In this document: piece after piece, positions 4,111 to 10,375 of the stretch
Layout of the letters: every line of letters starts with the position of its first letter
Position numbering within the stretch: the stretch's first letter is position 1
NCBI RefSeq assembly: GCF_000517265.1
Contig: NZ_AYSJ01000013.1
Span: 227,859-291,858, forward strand
DNA: 64,000 nt
Direction: 5' to 3'
DNA from: Photorhabdus khanii NC19
GTDB taxonomy: Bacteria > Pseudomonadota > Gammaproteobacteria > Enterobacterales > Enterobacteriaceae
Program-made: the position numbers and the translations under genes
The notes under the pieces: generated by a model
Databases searched by the model: none
What the model saw: the letters and a program-made list of their open reading frames with translations, nothing else
Told to the model about the DNA's origin: nothing

Positions 4111-4998
4111 ATGAAACACTCCCCATTGCGACGTTCGCTGTTATTAGCAGGTATTACTCTTCCTTTGGTCAACTTCACTTTTCCAGCATGGGCTGGTGCG
4201 ATTCCTTCATCACTGCATCAACAACTTGCTGAGTTGGAAAACAGAACAAAAGGTCGTCTGGGGGTGACATTGATTAATACTGCGAATGGTCAGGAGATCC
4301 AATACCGGGGGAATGAACGTTTCCCTTTCTGTAGTACTTTCAAGCTGATGCTGGTGGCAGCGGTGTTGCATAAAAGCATGTCCCAATCAGAACTGTTAGC
4401 AAAACATATCAATTATAGTGAGTCCGACTTACAGTCTTATGCTCCAATTGCCCGCAAGAACCTGAATCAAGGTATGAATATCACACAATTATGTGCCGCA
4501 ACATTGCAATACAGCGACAACACTGCGGCGAACTTGTTAATTAAAGAATTAGGTGGGTTAGCAGCGGTGAACCACTTTGCTCAAGGCCTTGGTGATAGAG
4601 CGTTCCGGCTCGATCGCTGGGAGCCTGATTTGAACAGCGCTATTCCCGATGATCCCAGAGATACCACAACACCAGCGGCAATGGCGACCAGTGTGAAGAA
4701 AATCGTGCTTGGAGAGACTCTGGCTGCACCACAACGTGAACAATTGGTTGGCTGGCTCAAAGGGAATACCACTGGAGATGCCAGTATTCGAGCCGGAACA
4801 CCGGACGGTTGGGTCGTTGGCGATAAAACGGGTGGCGGTGATTACGGCACCAGTAATGATGTCGCCATACTTTGGCCACCAGAAGGGGGATCACCTGTAG
4901 TTCTCGCGGTTTATTTTACCCAACATCAGAAAGACGCTGAGTCACGCCGTGATGTACTGGCTTCAACTACGCGATTGGTGATGAAGCATTTGGCGTGA
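4111..4998 (+). CDS. Class A beta-lactamase with twin-arginine signal peptide
   Basis: This 295-residue serine beta-lactamase hydrolyses beta-lactam rings in the periplasm. The precursor has the nucleophile motif STFK (S75, K78; Ambler S70/K73), the SDN loop at 135-137, the omega-loop glutamate E171 (Ambler E166) in RWEPDLN, and KTG at 239-241. Cys74 (Ambler 69) precedes the nucleophile, but the KTG-adjacent stretch is [10 protein letters not shown] with no Cys at Ambler 238. That pattern is like CTX-M-type chromosomal enzymes and unlike KPC/SME carbapenemases, which have the 69-238 disulphide. The signal sequence contains RRSLLLAG before a hydrophobic stretch ending AWA-GA, pointing to Tat export. 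It stands alone without an ampR gene. The spectrum cannot be read from sequence. Confidence 0.95.
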
Positions 4999-5078: not shown

Positions 5079-5112
5079 CCTACATAAATTGATTGTTATA
5101 TTAGGAGGTACT

Positions 5113-5367
5113 ATGTCAATCACAACCTTATCAAGCCGAGAACTCAACCAGGATGTTAGTAGGGCAAAGAAGGCTGCCAAAAGTGGTCCTGTGTTTATCA
5201 CAGATCGCGGCAAGCCAGCGCATGTCCTGCTGACTATTGAGGAATATCAACGGATCACGAAGCAACGCAGAAACATCGCTGATGCTTTGGCAATGCCCGG
5301 TGTTGAAGATATTGAATTCAATCCGGCGCGAGCTACCATTAATAGCCGTCCGGCTAATTTCTCATGA
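5113..5367 (+). CDS. Phd/YefM-family antitoxin
   Basis: The 84-residue protein starts MSITTLSSRELNQDVSRAKKAA and continues GPVFITDRGKPAHVLLTIEEY, the hallmark of Phd/YefM antitoxins: an N-terminal DNA-binding fold that represses the operon and a C-terminal tail that neutralises the toxin. I place the start at the ATG at 5113 because AGGAGG lies at 5103-5108, four bases upstream; a TTG at 5089 would add eight unlikely residues. Its stop overlaps the start of the PIN-domain toxin at 5364 (ATGA), so the two are translationally coupled. The pair looks intact. Confidence 0.9.
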   Translation: MSITTLSSRELNQDVSRAKKAAKSGPVFITDRGKPAHVLLTIEEYQRITKQRRNIADALAMPGVEDIEFNPARATINSRPANFS

Positions 5368-5783
5368 TGTTTGTTCTTGATACCAATGTCGTGTCCGAGC
5401 TTCGGAAAGTTCAGGCGGGTAAGGCTAATACTGGGGTTACCTCATGGGCTGAAAGTGTTGATGCAGCGGAGCTTTTCCTATCGGCCATTACCATTATGGA
5501 GCTGGAAACCGGCATCTTACAGATTGAACGGCGAGACATAATCCAAGGGGCATTATTGCGTTCATGGTTTAACCACCATGTCATACCGGAATTTACTGGG
5601 CGGATCTTACCGGTAGATACGGCTGTAGCGTTGCGGTGCGCCCGGCTGCATGTACCTGATCCATGCTCAGAGCGTGATGCACTTATCGCGGCAACCGCAC
5701 TCGTTCATGGTATGACCGTCGTCACACGGAACGTGGCCGATTTTGAGTTGACTGGAGTGCCAATATTGAACCCTTGGATTTAG
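5364..5783 (+). CDS. PIN-domain ribonuclease toxin (VapC/FitB-like)
   Basis: The 139-residue protein opens MMFVLDTNVVSELRK, with the first PIN-domain aspartate (D6) in the LDTNVVSE motif. Later come an ITIMELETGI segment with the conserved glutamate, SERDALIAATALVHG with the third acidic residue, and VVTRNVADFELTGV near the end. These acidic residues bind the metal that cleaves RNA in VapC-type toxins. The gene overlaps the antitoxin by four bases. The family usually cuts tRNA or rRNA; the actual target here is unknown. A probable terminator lies about 150 bases downstream. Confidence 0.9.
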   Translation: MMFVLDTNVVSELRKVQAGKANTGVTSWAESVDAAELFLSAITIMELETGILQIERRDIIQGALLRSWFNHHVIPEFTGRILPVDTAVALRCARLHVPDPCSERDALIAATALVHGMTVVTRNVADFELTGVPILNPWI

Positions 5784-5966: not shown

Positions 5967-6297
5967 CTAAATTAAGATTATTACCCGTGATGAGTTTTGC
6001 ACTTTTATCGAATTTCTCAAATTGCCAAAAAAAGCCATTAACACTACAAAATATCTGGCCTTTTAGGTGGATAAGGCTCTCTATGAATCTGACAAATTAC
6101 TCAGTATTTCAAGGCTATTGAAATCATGAAAGCGAGAGTGAGGATAGTCATCGATGAACTCGATTTTCAATATATGATTTACATCACAATGTCAATAAAA
6201 AAACAATTAATTTAATTGTAACATTAAAGTAAATTTGTTATTTTATTGTTGCGCAAAAGTTATGGGCGCAAGGTGAGTTTGTTCGGTGGAGGTTATC

Positions 6298-6438
6298 ATG
6301 TGCGAAGATAGAAAGACGGTAATGGAAAGCAATGGTGATCAGGCAGGGGCTAACGTCGAAGATCTCGGCTTAGAAGTTGTAGAAGACATCCCCCAGATTT
6401 CAGGGGCGTGTCCTGTTCGTCAAATTTGTCATGCTTAA
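6298..6438 (+). CDS. 46-residue putative precursor peptide (candidate RiPP precursor)
   Basis: A clear ribosome-binding site (GGTGGAGG, 6285-6292) sits five bases before ATG 6298. The peptide has an acidic first part (MCEDRKTVMESNGDQ, then VEDLGLEVVEDIPQIS) and a contrasting short tail GACPVRQICHA with two Cys, one Arg and one His. The stop is 13 bases before the start of the JmjC-like oxygenase gene, so the two are almost certainly one operon. An acidic amphipathic leader, a Gly-Ala junction and a small Cys-containing C-terminus beside an oxygenase is the layout of a ribosomally made, modified peptide. No exporter or protease lies beside it. The real function is unknown and I do not recognise the family. 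Confidence 0.65.
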   Translation: MCEDRKTVMESNGDQAGANVEDLGLEVVEDIPQISGACPVRQICHA

Positions 6439-6451
6439 TTAGGCTAATCTG

Positions 6452-7732
6452 ATGACTGACATGCTTCAATACAATGCCTTGATTTCAGCATTGTCTATGC
6501 AACGATTGGAACCGCTTTATCAACACATCTGTGCTCATGAATCCTCCAGTGCTGCATATGAATATAATCCCGTCGAGACGCCGTGCAAAATGGCTCCTCT
6601 TTTATTGAAGAGGGTTTTCGAACCGGTAATTTTCGATGATGCTCTATTCTTTGATTTGTTTGCCAGCATGTCTACAGAAGCTGAACGGGCTATCAGTGGT
6701 TTGTTTCGAGTGTATATTGACGGCATGTTGAGCCCTCAGTACGAGAACGAGGTTTTATTTAATCATCCTCGGGTGGGAGAGGCTTTCAAGGACTATGTAT
6801 CCAGAGCTACTGCTGGAAACAAGTTCGGCATTATTGTGAATGGTGCTGAACAATGGTCTGATCCATTGGCTCGGATGGGGGCTCGCATTTTCGCGCCGGT
6901 TGTCGAAGCTCAAGGCGCTTGGCGGAGTACGGTTGAGGTGACGTTATTTATCGGCAACTACGGCTACACGCCTTTTGGCATTCACATTGATGATCCCTAC
7001 ACCTCAATTGTCCATTTCCATACTGGCCCCACGACCAAGGAGATGACCCTTTTCAGCCGAGAAGAGTTTCATCGACTGAATGGTGAACGAAAGAACTGCT
7101 TCCAGCCGGAACGCTTGGTACCTCATGGTAAAACCTTTGTCATCGAAGCGGGTGATGTCTTTTTGCTGCCACCGCATTGGTACCATATTGGTAATACAGA
7201 GGGTTTCTCAATTGGTATTGCATTTGCGATATCAAAGTATTCAGCTACCAAGGTAACTGCGAATACTCTTCAACATGCCATTACCGAAGAAGGCCTGCGA
7301 GGTTCTATTGATGAAGTCGTGGAACAGGCCGAAAAGGGTGCGTATTCTCAGGCGGGGTGGTTGAGACGAATATATGCTGAAAATATGGCAAGAGCCTCAA
7401 GCCGCCGGCATCTGCGCTATTCTTACGTTCGTTTCCAGGATGACATGATTACGCCGGATACACGCTGGATCCGCGACCCTGACTTTCCGATAACCACTAT
7501 TGAGGTGGACGAGGATTTACTGGTCTTTGTCCACGGGAACCACATTCGCCTCGTTCGAAATGAAGTGAGTATCAGATTATTGAAGACCATTCCTGAGATA
7601 CCATTCAGTGCGCGCGATCTGCATGCAGAGCTTGAAGGACGTGTGTCGCTGGATGCACTGCTTGTTACGGTGAAACAGTTGCGCAGGCTGGGAGGATTAC
7701 TGCCGGCTGGGTTATGTTTAATCAACGTCTGA
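6452..7732 (+). CDS. JmjC/cupin-fold Fe(II)/2-oxoglutarate oxygenase-like protein with C-terminal winged-helix-like domain
   Basis: The 426-residue protein carries HIDDPYTS (H178, D180) and [12 protein letters not shown] (H245), spaced like the HxD...H iron ligands of JmjC and ribosomal-oxygenase (YcfD/MINA53-type) enzymes; FLLPPHWYH parallels the LYIPPGFPH strand of YcfD. The N-terminal 160 residues ([10 protein letters not shown]..., FRVYIDG...) look like a substrate-binding extension. Residues about 340-426 resemble a small winged-helix or PqqD-like fold ([35 protein letters not shown]). Members of this fold hydroxylate Arg or His side chains. The gene lies directly behind the 46-residue peptide, whose tail contains Arg, His and two Cys, so I infer the peptide is the substrate. 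A plain metabolic or regulatory cupin cannot be excluded. Confidence 0.7.
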
Positions 7733-7829
7733 ATTGTAAAGGTTGGGGCGGTATTGTTTTGTTGTTGCTCGGGATGGTGATGATTAAATTGGCGTAGATT
7801 TTAAGTGGTTAATTATAATAAAATGATAA

Positions 7830-7872
7830 CTTCAGGTAACATTTGATTCTTTCGGGTTAACTGAAGCTTTTT
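7830..7872. terminator. Stem-loop between convergent oxygenase and hipA genes
   Basis: CTTCAGGTAAC (7830-7840) pairs with GTTAACTGAAG (7856-7866) with one mismatch and a 15-base loop, followed by CTTTTTAA on the plus strand. It lies between converging genes and could end transcription of the peptide-oxygenase operon. Confidence 0.45.
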
Positions 7873-7899
7873 AATATCTTGGTAACTCTTTAAATGCTC

Positions 7900-9156
7900 T
7901 CAAAACTCTATAGAAAATGGATTTAAAAACTGTCTATGCCAGAGCAATTTTTTATCTATTTCACTTAATTCGGCTTCTTCACAGATATTATCCCAATTAT
8001 CTTGGATTATTGATATTTGTCTATTGAAGATTTCTTTTGCTTTCTCCTCTGATATATTAAAATTATGTGCAGTTTCTAAACAAGTTCGTAATTGACTTAG
8101 ATTTTTATTATCAATTATTAGCATCGCTTGAGATGCTTCATTACCAGCTCGACCCTGAGGACAGATGTCATAAGCAGGGGTTAAACTTAAATTTTTGCCA
8201 TCCCAAAATGCGGAGTGATTCCGAGCGTGATCATCCGTATTACCACACAATATATTAAAAACTAATCGTGAAAATAGCTCCTCTAATGTCTTTTGGGGAT
8301 TAGTGAAACTATATCGTATAATCTCGGCTAATTTTTCATAACTAGCATATCTAGCCATCATATCATCTAATCCAAATAGAGTTAGAGCAGAGACCATTGA
8401 TTTTCGTAACCAACCGTTTTGAGTATGTTCTCGGTCAAATCGTTTAATGAGTAGTACATCTTTATTTGCAGATGTTGTTAATTTTACTGAGGCAACATTA
8501 ATGCCGGATAGTTCAGCGAGTCTCATAGCAATAAACTCTGTTTTAACCACACTGTAAAGATCATTGCTTGAGGAAAATTTAGCAACATATTTGCTGTTTT
8601 TATCCTCAATGAGTGCTTTGGGACGTGCTCCACCAATTGAACTGCCATGAAAAAGTGCTTGGTCTAATTCTGGTGTTAGTAGTAGACCATTTTCAACTCG
8701 TTCTGCTGATTGAATAAGTTCTTCCAGACTGGCATTCTTTATAGATCGGGGAGTATATTCGGATGGGGACAATTGAAAATCTAAAGCGCCTATACGGTCA
8801 GATCCAGATTCAAGAAGGTACGTTATTTCATTTAATGTAGCAGTTTCTGTATCCGCTCCTTTTAACCCTAATATTTTGTTTATGATAACTCTACGACCCC
8901 ACGCATCAGGAGATGCGTCGCGGATACAGCCAGGCATTGTTAGGTCACTCAATGGGGCTATGATACCTGATTTTAATGGTAATTCCGGTTCATAAATTGA
9001 GATAGGTAGCGGCTGGCTATTTAATCTTTCAAGGTAACTTTTACCATAGTTAAATAAAATGCGGCCATTAAATTCTTCTAGGCGGCCAGCTACTACTGGC
9101 TCAGTTTGCTCTGGTAACCATATCCAAACATAAACTTCTTTGTTGTTAGAAGTCAT
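7900..9156 (-). CDS. hipA: HipA-family serine/threonine kinase toxin
   Basis: The 418-residue protein has the HipA layout: an N-terminal domain ending around PDAWGRR, the flexible P-loop SSIGGARPKA (with the autophosphorylation serine of the family), the catalytic loop GNTDDHARNHSAF and the metal-binding PAYDICP. HipA kinases stop growth, in E. coli by phosphorylating glutamyl-tRNA synthetase, and are linked to persistence. Its start overlaps the hipB stop by 11 bases, the usual order antitoxin then toxin. All key residues are visible, so it appears active. Some HipA relatives phosphorylate other synthetases; the target here is not determined. Confidence 0.92.
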   Translation of the reverse strand: MTSNNKEVYVWIWLPEQTEPVVAGRLEEFNGRILFNYGKSYLERLNSQPLPISIYEPELPLKSGIIAPLSDLTMPGCIRDASPDAWGRRVIINKILGLKGADTETATLNEITYLLESGSDRIGALDFQLSPSEYTPRSIKNASLEELIQSAERVENGLLLTPELDQALFHGSSIGGARPKALIEDKNSKYVAKFSSSNDLYSVVKTEFIAMRLAELSGINVASVKLTTSANKDVLLIKRFDREHTQNGWLRKSMVSALTLFGLDDMMARYASYEKLAEIIRYSFTNPQKTLEELFSRLVFNILCGNTDDHARNHSAFWDGKNLSLTPAYDICPQGRAGNEASQAMLIIDNKNLSQLRTCLETAHNFNISEEKAKEIFNRQISIIQDNWDNICEEAELSEIDKKLLWHRQFLNPFSIEF

Positions 9157-9478
9157 CGTATACCACTCTCTTTTCTTCTTGAATGCGTTGTGGTAGCAAA
9201 GCCAGCTTATCTCTTGTTTGTTCTATACGTGCTGAGATAGGAAATTTATCCCTTTCAAACAAGTTGATGCCTACAAGATTAGCTAGCTCAAATGCTAGTC
9301 CTATAGAACAGCCCATATCTCCTTTTTCAATTTTTTGCAGTGTAGTTCTGGATATACCCGCACGTTCTGCCAAATTCTTTTCTGACCACCGACGTTGTTT
9401 TCTGCCTAGCTTGATTTGTTCTCCGAGTAGCATGGCTGCTTCTTGGGAGAATTTAGAATAGGCTCTATGTTTTGACAT
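9146..9478 (-). CDS. hipB: HipB-family helix-turn-helix antitoxin and autorepressor
   Basis: The 110-residue protein contains an HTH_3 (Cro/cI) domain at about residues 18-75: LGEQIKLGRKQRRWSEKNLAERAGISRTTLQKIEKGD. It would bind HipA and repress the hipBA promoter. An AGGAG-like ribosome-binding site precedes the ATG on the minus strand. Two related palindromic sites upstream (9534-9549 and 9573-9600) are candidate operators. The C-terminal tail (EEKRVVYDDF) is longer than in E. coli HipB (88 residues). Confidence 0.9.
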   Translation of the reverse strand: MSKHRAYSKFSQEAAMLLGEQIKLGRKQRRWSEKNLAERAGISRTTLQKIEKGDMGCSIGLAFELANLVGINLFERDKFPISARIEQTRDKLALLPQRIQEEKRVVYDDF

Positions 9479-9533
9479 ACTCCCTCCTTTTGACTTTTAT
9501 TTTGGTCTTTATAGGCTTTAATGAACAGTATAG

Positions 9534-9600
9534 TGGTCATTATAATGGTTTGTTGAAATGAGGATGTCAATATCACATGACCATTATAATGACCATGTGA
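9534..9600. promoter_or_regulatory. Two HipB operator-like sites upstream of hipBA
   Basis: TGGTCATTATAATGGT at 9534-9549 reappears in reverse complement at 9580-9595. Both are centred on the perfect palindrome CATTATAATG, and the centres are 46 bases apart. The distal copy sits within a 28-base near-palindrome (9573-9600) whose outer arms are TCACATG and CATGTGA. HipB is known to bind several spaced palindromic operators before its own operon, which fits this layout. Confidence 0.65.
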
Positions 9601-9642
9601 GGTACAAGGTATGGGAGTAAAACTCAAAGGATTATTCTTATA

Positions 9643-9762
9643 GGGGTCGTTTGGCGAAAGGGAAATTAAAGTACGCTAAGCAAAGAGTGTCAGGTTAAAC
9701 TATGCTTCAAACTGGCACTCATGGCTTAGTGTACTATTTTTTCCGAATTCTGTAGTTACCCG
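9643..9762. repeat. Tn3-family-type 38-bp terminal inverted repeat with a degenerate inward-facing partner
   Basis: Bases 9643-9680 are exactly 38 long, begin GGGGTCGT and end AGTACGCTAAG. This matches the GGGG...TAAG layout of Tn3-family ends, and by memory about 29 of 38 positions agree with the Tn21-type end. A decayed inverted partner runs from CTTAGTGTACT at 9725 to about 9762 and matches best in the inner half. The pair would delimit a unit of only about 120 bases, as in miniature Tn3-derived elements. No convincing 5-bp target duplication is seen. It could also be one solo end plus a chance hairpin. No gene lies between 9601 and 10000. Confidence 0.5.
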
Positions 9763-10000
9763 TAACTGAATACCCATAATTCAATCAAATGAAATGCCAA
9801 TTTTTTAAGTACGCCTAATAAACTTCCCTCCATTGCGACTCGTTAGAAACACATTATCTTAATTACATGTATATATATACATGTAATTAACATTATTTTA
9901 AAATGATAAGTGCAATGCAATAACAACCTGTTACATGATTGAGTCATACAACAGCTTGTTTTTACTTTCTTATATTAAATCTAACTTACATGAGAATGAC

Positions 10001-10375
10001 ATGATGACAGTATCTCCCAAACCCAATCTTCAGCTTGTCTACGTATCTGATATCGAACGTTCGACAGCTTTCTACCAGACACTTTTCAATTCTGAACCCG
10101 TGTTTTCTAGCCCCCGCTATGTGGCATTTGCTGCCGACAGCGAAGCACTGTTTGCTATTTGGTCTGGCGGAACCAAGCCAGATGCTGCTGTCCCGCGGTT
10201 CTCTGAGATCGGCATTATGTTGCCATCCCACGAAGATGTAGATCGCCTCTTTGAGGAATGGCGGAAGAACCCCGGCATCAAAATCGTGCAAGAACCTTAT
10301 ACTGAAGTTTTTGGTCGTACTTTCCTCGTTGAAGATCCTGACGGTCATATTATTCGAGTATGCCCCCTGGATTAG
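10001..10375 (+). CDS. ehpR: VOC-family phenazine-antibiotic resistance protein (EhpR-like)
   Basis: The protein of about 125 residues runs PKPNLQLVYVSDIERSTAFYQ, SPRYVAFAADSEALFAIWSGG, RFSEIGIMLPS, EPYTEVFGRTFLVEDPDGHIIRVCPLD. This closely matches what I remember of EhpR from Pantoea agglomerans, a glyoxalase-fold protein that binds the phenazine D-alanylgriseoluteic acid and confers self-resistance by sequestration. I take the ATG at 10001; an upstream ATG at 9935 adds 22 residues with no family similarity. A strong terminator follows. There is no phenazine synthesis operon here, so the gene probably protects against competitors' phenazines or a product made elsewhere. Confidence 0.82.
   Translation: MMTVSPKPNLQLVYVSDIERSTAFYQTLFNSEPVFSSPRYVAFAADSEALFAIWSGGTKPDAAVPRFSEIGIMLPSHEDVDRLFEEWRKNPGIKIVQEPYTEVFGRTFLVEDPDGHIIRVCPLD

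Follow-up and report, generated by a model that had tools for sequence, protein, structure and literature searches.

The window analysed here is a stretch of 64,000 nucleotides from Photorhabdus khanii NC19 (contig NZ_AYSJ01000013.1, positions 227,859 to 291,858). It contains a small gene for a putative precursor peptide followed by a gene for a putative JmjC-type oxygenase, designated JmjC1. The features of this pair were as follows.

6288 to 6292, plus strand: ribosome-binding site GGAGG, read from the sequence, 5 bases 5' of the ATG
6298 to 6438, plus strand: precursor peptide gene of 46 codons; a homologous small ORF lies 5' of JmjC1 in 10/10 proteobacterial loci
6358 to 6387, plus strand: conserved leader stretch EDLGLEVVED, residues 21-30 (nine precursors aligned, the tenth compared separately)
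6409 to 6429, plus strand: core stretch CPVRQIC, residues 38-44, which differs from the RP[VI]RHIR of complete clusters (precursor comparison)
6452 to 7732, plus strand: putative JmjC1 oxygenase of 426 aa (ORF, weak Pfam matches, ligand alignment, dN/dS)
6983 to 6985, 6989 to 6991, and 7184 to 7186, plus strand: putative iron ligands H178, D180, and H245 of JmjC1 (alignment)

The precursor consists of 46 residues, MCEDRKTVMESNGDQAGANVEDLGLEVVEDIPQISGACPVRQICHA, with its ATG at 6298-6300 and its stop codon ending at 6438, and 13 bases (6439-6451) lie between this stop codon and the ATG of JmjC1. The preliminary description had proposed a 46-residue precursor gene with a good ribosome-binding site, 13 bases 5' of the gene for a 426-residue protein, and this was confirmed by the ORFs and the GGAGG motif. 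The GGAGG was also found 5' of the precursor in the related loci L004-L008. R41 is the sole Arg left in the core stretch of the window. A class A beta-lactamase-like gene (4111-4998; PF13354, 4.3e-45) is also present in the window, and genes for a Phd-type antitoxin and a PIN-domain toxin (5089-5783) are located 5' of the pair.

The JmjC assignment of the window JmjC1 by sequence is weak. When the protein was searched alone, Pfam JmjC matched at 1.2e-4 (22.9 bits versus a cut-off of 24) and JmjC_2 at 8.4e-4 (19.3 bits versus a cut-off of 22). In the genome search, in which the frame included neighbours, JmjC_2 scored 22.6 bits (4e-4), just above the cut-off of 22. The PDB search by sequence with JmjC1 alone returned just two chance matches (E 0.44 and 0.54), the JmjC1 profile had no PDB match at E <= 0.1, and the NCBIfam search with the window pair gave nothing useful. 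The HxD...H ligands named in the preliminary description (H178, D180, and H245) were invariant in 7/7 aligned JmjC1 proteins. The winged-helix-like C-terminus proposed there was not borne out, as that part of the window protein had no Pfam match up to E 10. The C-terminal domain of JmjC1 and that of a second oxygenase of the related loci, JmjC2, matched each other (hhalign, 97.7%). Against four PqqD-like sequences these C-terminal domains gave 0.3-0.8%, with 1.0% for a control pair, and Pfam on the isolated terminal domains found nothing relevant (one chance match at E 0.23). By analogy with known systems, recognition-element domains in the cluster enzymes are plausible.

Relatives of the pair were collected from several sources. 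Scanning the species-genome collection by pattern yielded eight loci, i.e., five in Photorhabdus (78-89% identity) and one each in Neisseriaceae TC5R-5 (56%), Sodalis dw_96 (52%), and Rossellomorea arthrocnemi (25%), the last match falling on a JmjC2-like gene. The set compared below comprises 11 loci: ten from proteobacteria, including the window (at least 49% identity; six are from Photorhabdus), and L011 from Bacillota. A locus present in two collections was recognised by short identical stretches and counted once (L004/G010, L005/G011, L006/G001, L007/G007, L008/G004, L009/G1442, and L010/G312). Outside this count are the distant JmjC1-like loci L039 (G380), L040, L041, L042, L045 (G654), and L046 (G527), the dead copy-A relic of L005 with its truncated precursor, and the Klebsiella/Pantoea plasmid loci. 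A small ORF lay 5' of JmjC1 in 11/11 loci (Photorhabdus, Sodalis, the Neisseriaceae bacterium, G915, G1128, and Rossellomorea), and it carried the leader motif L[GE]LE[VI] in all ten proteobacterial loci. The small ORF of L011 had a different leader and a related tail, and was present in three identical copies. The pairing of the small ORF with JmjC1 exceeds chance.

Homologues of the oxygenase lacking the small ORF, which the preliminary description had regarded as evidence against the pair, were absent from the 11 close or cluster-bearing loci. However, scanning of the 700 bases 5' of the gene in the six distant loci (L039, L040, L041, L042, L045, and L046) revealed no ORF with RP[VI] or L[GE]LE[VI]. 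In L039, L045, and L046, the other cluster proteins were also absent beside the JmjC-like gene, except for a generic ABC ATPase in L046.

The distribution of the gene is sporadic in the sampled genomes. Eight of the 12 Photorhabdus genomes matched JmjC1 at the search thresholds; six carried it in full length (one with a stop), and the other two had just a 38% relative inside a longer frame. The JmjC1 profile matched 6 of 392 genomes in the family, three of them strongly (G000, G004, and G312), and 3 of 369 in the class, where one match was that of the window itself and the other two were distant. With the JmjC2 profile, matches were obtained in 2 of 398 genomes of the phylum (one of them to JmjC1 of the window), in 2 of 245 and 2 of 399 genomes of the family and order of G915, respectively, and in 1 of 6 genomes of the G312 genus. 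When plasmids were searched by tblastn, JmjC1 of L005, JmjC2 of L011, and JmjC2 of L005 matched 27, 31, and 30 records, respectively, all at less than 60% identity.

Seven proteobacterial loci were complete, i.e., L005, L006, L008, L009, L010, L052 (G915), and L066 (G1128). The gene order in all seven was precursor, JmjC1, JmjC2, ABC exporter, and arginase, and a third oxygenase, JmjC3, was located between the exporter and the arginase in six of them, being missing from L010. JmjC2 (383-394 aa) and the ABC exporter (616-622 aa) had these sizes where unfused; JmjC3 had 235-241 aa and the arginase 417-450 aa. L052 has two natural fusions, JmjC1-JmjC2 and exporter-JmjC3, which tie the cluster parts together. 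An additional 2-oxoglutarate oxygenase is carried by L009, L052, and L066. Pfam was run for the cluster proteins of two loci, L005 and L009; similarity to these proteins was used to assign their counterparts elsewhere. In both, the exporter matched ABC_tran/ABC_membrane, the third enzyme Cupin_8/JmjC, and the arginase PF00491 (for L005, ABC_tran 1.4e-26, Cupin_8 of JmjC3 6.4e-19, and Arginase 3.7e-37), and JmjC2 of L005 and L009 and JmjC1 of L009 fell under every Pfam cut-off. The HxD...H triad was present in 6/6 JmjC2 proteins, and the JmjC2 profile matched TYW5 (3al5) in the PDB at E 0.0086, beside a meaningless lysozyme match. The best NCBIfam kin of the ABC exporter were glucan and MsbA-type exporters, none of the best 25 listed reaching its cut-off; among the NCBIfam matches listed for the L005 exporter, none started before residue 49. 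No protease was recognised among the cluster genes.

The arginase profile matched PDB agmatinases across positions 172-402. Since the match is confined to this part, the enzyme has an N-terminal extra region outside any family matched. The Mn ligand motifs GGDH, DAHxD, and FDxD were invariant in 6/6 aligned cluster arginases and also present in L052 and L066. In a motif scan of six arginases, GGDH and DAHxD were found in all and FDxD in four, the two without it being those of plasmid loci L053 and L054. The Bacillota locus of Rossellomorea, L011, has three identical 38-codon precursors, a JmjC1-like gene, an arginase, two JmjC2-like genes, a JmjC3-like gene, and an MFS gene; two of its four oxygenase-like proteins were recognised by Pfam and the other two had no match. 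As a separate observation, the spacers between the precursor and JmjC1 in L009, L052, and L066 were hairpin-rich (-28.8, -31.2, and -43.8 kcal/mol for hand-chosen, unshuffled stretches of 86-121 bases) and could set a precursor excess; the Photorhabdus loci that were folded have short spacers, in which no such hairpins appeared.

The tail RP[VI]RHIR was present in 7/7 complete proteobacterial loci. The tails lacking it were those of the window (ACPVRQICHA), L004 (ARPVRQICNA), and L007 (SRSVQPIR). L004 retains all downstream genes, but a TAG interrupts its JmjC1 at codon 42; at the L007 locus, the other cluster genes were not found. The contrast between the complete (7/7) and the incomplete or broken loci (0/3) gave a Fisher value of 0.008, for a grouping that is post hoc and loci that are related; the RQIC change is common to the window and L004, so the tail contrast is not independent. 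In Rossellomorea the tail is ARPVTHVGH, with a single Arg, and Arg-Pro-Val/Ile and His are common to this tail and the complete proteobacterial ones. The window tail has lost the Arg and the His that complete clusters share with Rossellomorea, and its two Cys sit at positions occupied by Arg in the complete loci. Therefore, the Cys pair of the window is probably derived, and the idea that the Cys pair is the point of the tail was rejected. A conserved leader with a variable tail had been expected among homologues in the preliminary description; the leader was indeed conserved in the proteobacterial loci, whereas the tail turned out to be invariant in the complete ones.

The region 3' of JmjC1 in the window contained the following features.

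7699 to 9848: segment without blastn homology (E <= 1e-5) to L004/L005, in place of JmjC2-ABC-JmjC3-arginase
7900 to 9156, minus strand: HipA-like protein, within the replacement segment (PF07804, E 1.4e-50)
9146 to 9478, minus strand: HipB-like HTH protein (PF01381, E 2.2e-9)
9935 to 10375, plus strand: glyoxalase-family gene, the anchor 3' of the arginase gene in L004 and L005 (PF00903, E 1e-11, and synteny)

The blastn homology of the window stopped at 7698 and restarted at 9849 (L005) or 9856 (L004), before the glyoxalase gene, and 2.1 kb with hipBA replaces the JmjC2-to-arginase block of approximately 5.1 kb. In the window's own genome, no JmjC2 was found at E <= 1e-20. The genome has two arginase-family genes, which matched the catalytic part only, and no arginase of the cluster type with the extra N-terminal region was found in it. 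A distant cupin gene (E 2e-4) and, on another contig, a 60-residue JmjC3 relic with a stop (L077 9828-10010) were also present. 5' of its complete cluster, P. thracensis (L005) carries a relic from which most of the sequence has been deleted; the rest matches JmjC1 and the precursor region of the window at 90-95% identity. The JmjC1 of L004 is window-like at its 5' end and L005-like past approximately codon 80, where its identity to L005 was 88-98% per 40-codon bin (at least 95% in seven of nine bins). Considering the L005 relic and the L004 mosaic, a tandem pair most likely existed formerly, of which the window retains 'copy A'.

The dN/dS of JmjC1 was 0.146 between the window and L004, 0.08-0.17 in the six pairs including the window, and 0.08-0.25 in all pairs. 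With its full ORF and a dN/dS of approximately 0.15, the window JmjC1 may still be active. The precursors of the window and L004 had nine nonsynonymous and two synonymous differences (pN/pS 1.23), and the other 14 Photorhabdus pairs had a pN/pS of 0.26-0.45; the contrast between the window-L004 precursor and JmjC1 codons 1-80 was not significant (Fisher 0.06). Since the downstream genes are gone and core residues have been lost, the window locus probably no longer makes the product of the complete clusters.

Observed gene content, conservation, metal-ligand motifs, and synteny loss make it likely that the window pair is the surviving front end (precursor and first oxygenase) of a larger RiPP cluster, whose complete versions would produce Orn from Arg and add hydroxyl groups to the core. 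Leader binding, all the chemistry, export, and the loss of function in the window are predictions. In the complete clusters, the enzymes would bind the leader, and within RP[VI]RHIR the arginase would turn Arg into ornithine by hydrolysis. As the Rossellomorea tail has just one Arg, which is in ARP, we infer that this residue, at the least, is most likely a target. Two to four JmjC/cupin Fe(II)/2-oxoglutarate oxygenases would then hydroxylate Orn, His, or adjacent residues. The leader would be removed by a protease encoded outside the cluster, and the product would be exported by the ABC exporter, or by the MFS protein in Rossellomorea. For the window itself, JmjC1 might hydroxylate the precursor tail, as the preliminary description had supposed. 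The preliminary description had seen here a precursor with an Arg/His tail and a JmjC-type oxygenase that form a two-gene system without a transporter. The pairing was upheld by the small ORF in 11/11 loci, the conserved leader, and the invariant HxD...H ligands, but a self-contained two-gene system was rejected because complete clusters with exporter, oxygenases, and arginase exist in relatives. A decayed locus read alone is misleading: loss most likely accounts for both the Cys and the absence of a transporter.

The conversion of Arg to Orn and the hydroxylation of the core were proposed by analogy with biphenomycins and enteropeptins. The biphenomycin pathway (bip/pbs) is likewise a RiPP pathway with an arginase and a JmjC/cupin-like hydroxylase; as described in the available parts of PMC12707348 and PMC12257519, Orn is produced by the arginase and gamma-hydroxylated by the JmjC enzyme BipG, which is inactive on Arg. 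According to the same sources, biphenomycins have an FRF core, MNIO, B12 radical SAM, a TldD protease, an MFS transporter, and an arginase of the UPF0489/PF12640 kind. In contrast, the present clusters in Pseudomonadota have an RP[VI]RHIR core rather than an FRF-type one, a PF00491 arginase, and an ABC exporter. MNIO and radical SAM are absent among the cluster genes identified; from JmjC1/JmjC2 to the arginase, the L005 and L009 genes matched Pfam families other than MNIO/B12 radical SAM, or none. A PF00491 arginase is also found in the enteropeptin RiPP pathway (KgrD), but KgrD, as characterised in the accessible portion of PMC12703449, requires thiomorpholine made from Cys, and the seven complete cores here are without Cys. 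OspR-type peptide arginases, as in landornamide, convert Arg to Orn in RiPP cores (PMC12703449 and PMC10028609, in the sections available). They belong to PF12640 (PMC12703449, same section), whereas the two Pfam-scanned cluster arginases (L005 and L009) had PF00491 only, with PF12640 absent, and the enzyme here has the extra N-terminal region. Fusions of JmjC proteins with RRE-like domains, with bacterial homologues in RiPP-like contexts, have been reported (PMC12710340); in the accessible text of that paper, the word arginase has 0 occurrences and no cluster of the present kind was found. An arginase in a different kind of cluster appears in the available part of PMC13060819. Among the matches listed in the open-access literature, no paper was recognised as describing this cluster. 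The precursor type and the gene combination are new here, and RiPPs with arginase and JmjC tailoring are known already. As a gene set, the clusters can be tested for the production of ribosomal peptides through Arg-to-Orn conversion and multiple oxygenase reactions, in which MNIO and radical SAM enzymes seem to play no part.

YcfD is a ribosomal oxygenase of the JmjC type. The similarity of JmjC1 to YcfD and to the ribosomal oxygenases MINA53/NO66 is weak, and we infer its substrate to be the linked precursor. It is highly improbable that JmjC1 is an ordinary ribosomal oxygenase with an incidental small ORF. The weak JmjC_2 match and the common fold family are in line with such an enzyme; however, a separate gene in the same genome matched JmjC_2 far better (E 3.2e-40), on which indirect ground this candidate was rejected, and the conserved small ORF, the cluster context, the JmjC1 profile without a PDB match, and the sporadic occurrence even within Photorhabdus all speak against it. 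MINA53/NO66 share with JmjC1 the HxD...H oxygenase type and are known for His C3-hydroxylation (PMC9994133, in the part available).

The low dN/dS and full ORF of JmjC1 would also suit a specialised second copy ('copy A'), in which a new Cys-bearing core, PVRQIC, is still modified by JmjC1 alone. The RQIC core recurs in L004, whose downstream genes are complete, and the copy-A relic of P. thracensis accompanies a complete copy B, indicating that A was formerly a duplicate. We nevertheless consider this unlikely: the window has lost the Arg and His common to all complete clusters and the Bacillota one, its precursor has a high pN/pS against L004 (though the Fisher value versus JmjC1 codons 1-80 is just 0.06), little of copy A is left in P. 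thracensis, and the L004 JmjC1 has a stop. Two to four oxygenases for a core of about seven residues might instead point to an oxidative cross-link, e.g., between Arg/Orn and His positions, giving a macrocycle, and a published study cited in PMC12710340, by its title, concerns 2-oxoglutarate-dioxygenase macrocyclization in RiPPs. Such a product is quite unlikely, as the JmjC enzyme of the biphenomycin pathway, in the portion of PMC12707348 available, hydroxylates Orn, and the present data fit hydroxylation equally. The surviving front end of a larger cluster is the preferred reading. We tentatively propose a new RiPP family with sporadic occurrence in Pseudomonadota and Bacillota. Guided by the leader, its PF00491 arginase would act together with two to four JmjC oxygenases to turn a short Arg-Pro tail (RP[VI]RHIR or ARPVTHVGH) into a (hydroxy)ornithine/hydroxyhistidine-rich, possibly cross-linked peptide. 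The family would be part of a wider world of JmjC enzymes and Arg-Pro peptides, including Nostoc GVRPDAL repeats, with Photorhabdus losing former tandem copies, one of which has a diverged, Cys-bearing core.

Small ORFs with repeats were seen 5' of more distant JmjC-like genes. In L039, from a genome of the same family, a peptide of repeats near KTGVRPDAL lies 84 bases 5' of the JmjC-like gene (upstream of 8454, minus strand), and two Nostoc plasmids have KTGVRPDGL repeats (L057 7711-7884) and KVGVRPDAL repeats (L078 2656-2790) 5' of JmjC-like genes, the three ORFs being approximately 65-84 bases from these genes. The L039 repeats differ at synonymous positions, which favours a translated repeat. 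The L039 and Nostoc ORFs are possible multi-core Arg-Pro precursors, a lead that lies outside the proof given here.

Other gene arrangements were observed at the side loci. L040 (7393-12108) and its relatives L041 and L042 in Photorhabdus encode a protein of approximately 605-641 aa with an N-terminal JmjC1-like domain (38-41%), together with 307 aa and 334 aa genes and a short-chain dehydrogenase gene; L040 has an intervening 60-aa ORF ending GFGCRSCTESSKNE, and a same-start ORF was not found in L041 and L042. Klebsiella michiganensis/Pantoea plasmids (L053 6237-12187, L054, L059, and L060) carry arginase, cupin, and cupin genes in this order, followed by a GNAT or hypothetical gene (none in L054) and then an MFS gene in three of the four (a hypothetical gene in L054). 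A divergent small ORF ending RDRRDTGH or RDRSDTGH is present on the same plasmids, and these loci are possible distant kin. On a Streptomyces zaomyceticus plasmid (L056 7798-7902), a small ORF ending FGPRQDVGH is followed by a JmjC2-like gene, a second cupin, an MFS gene, and a 2OG oxygenase gene.
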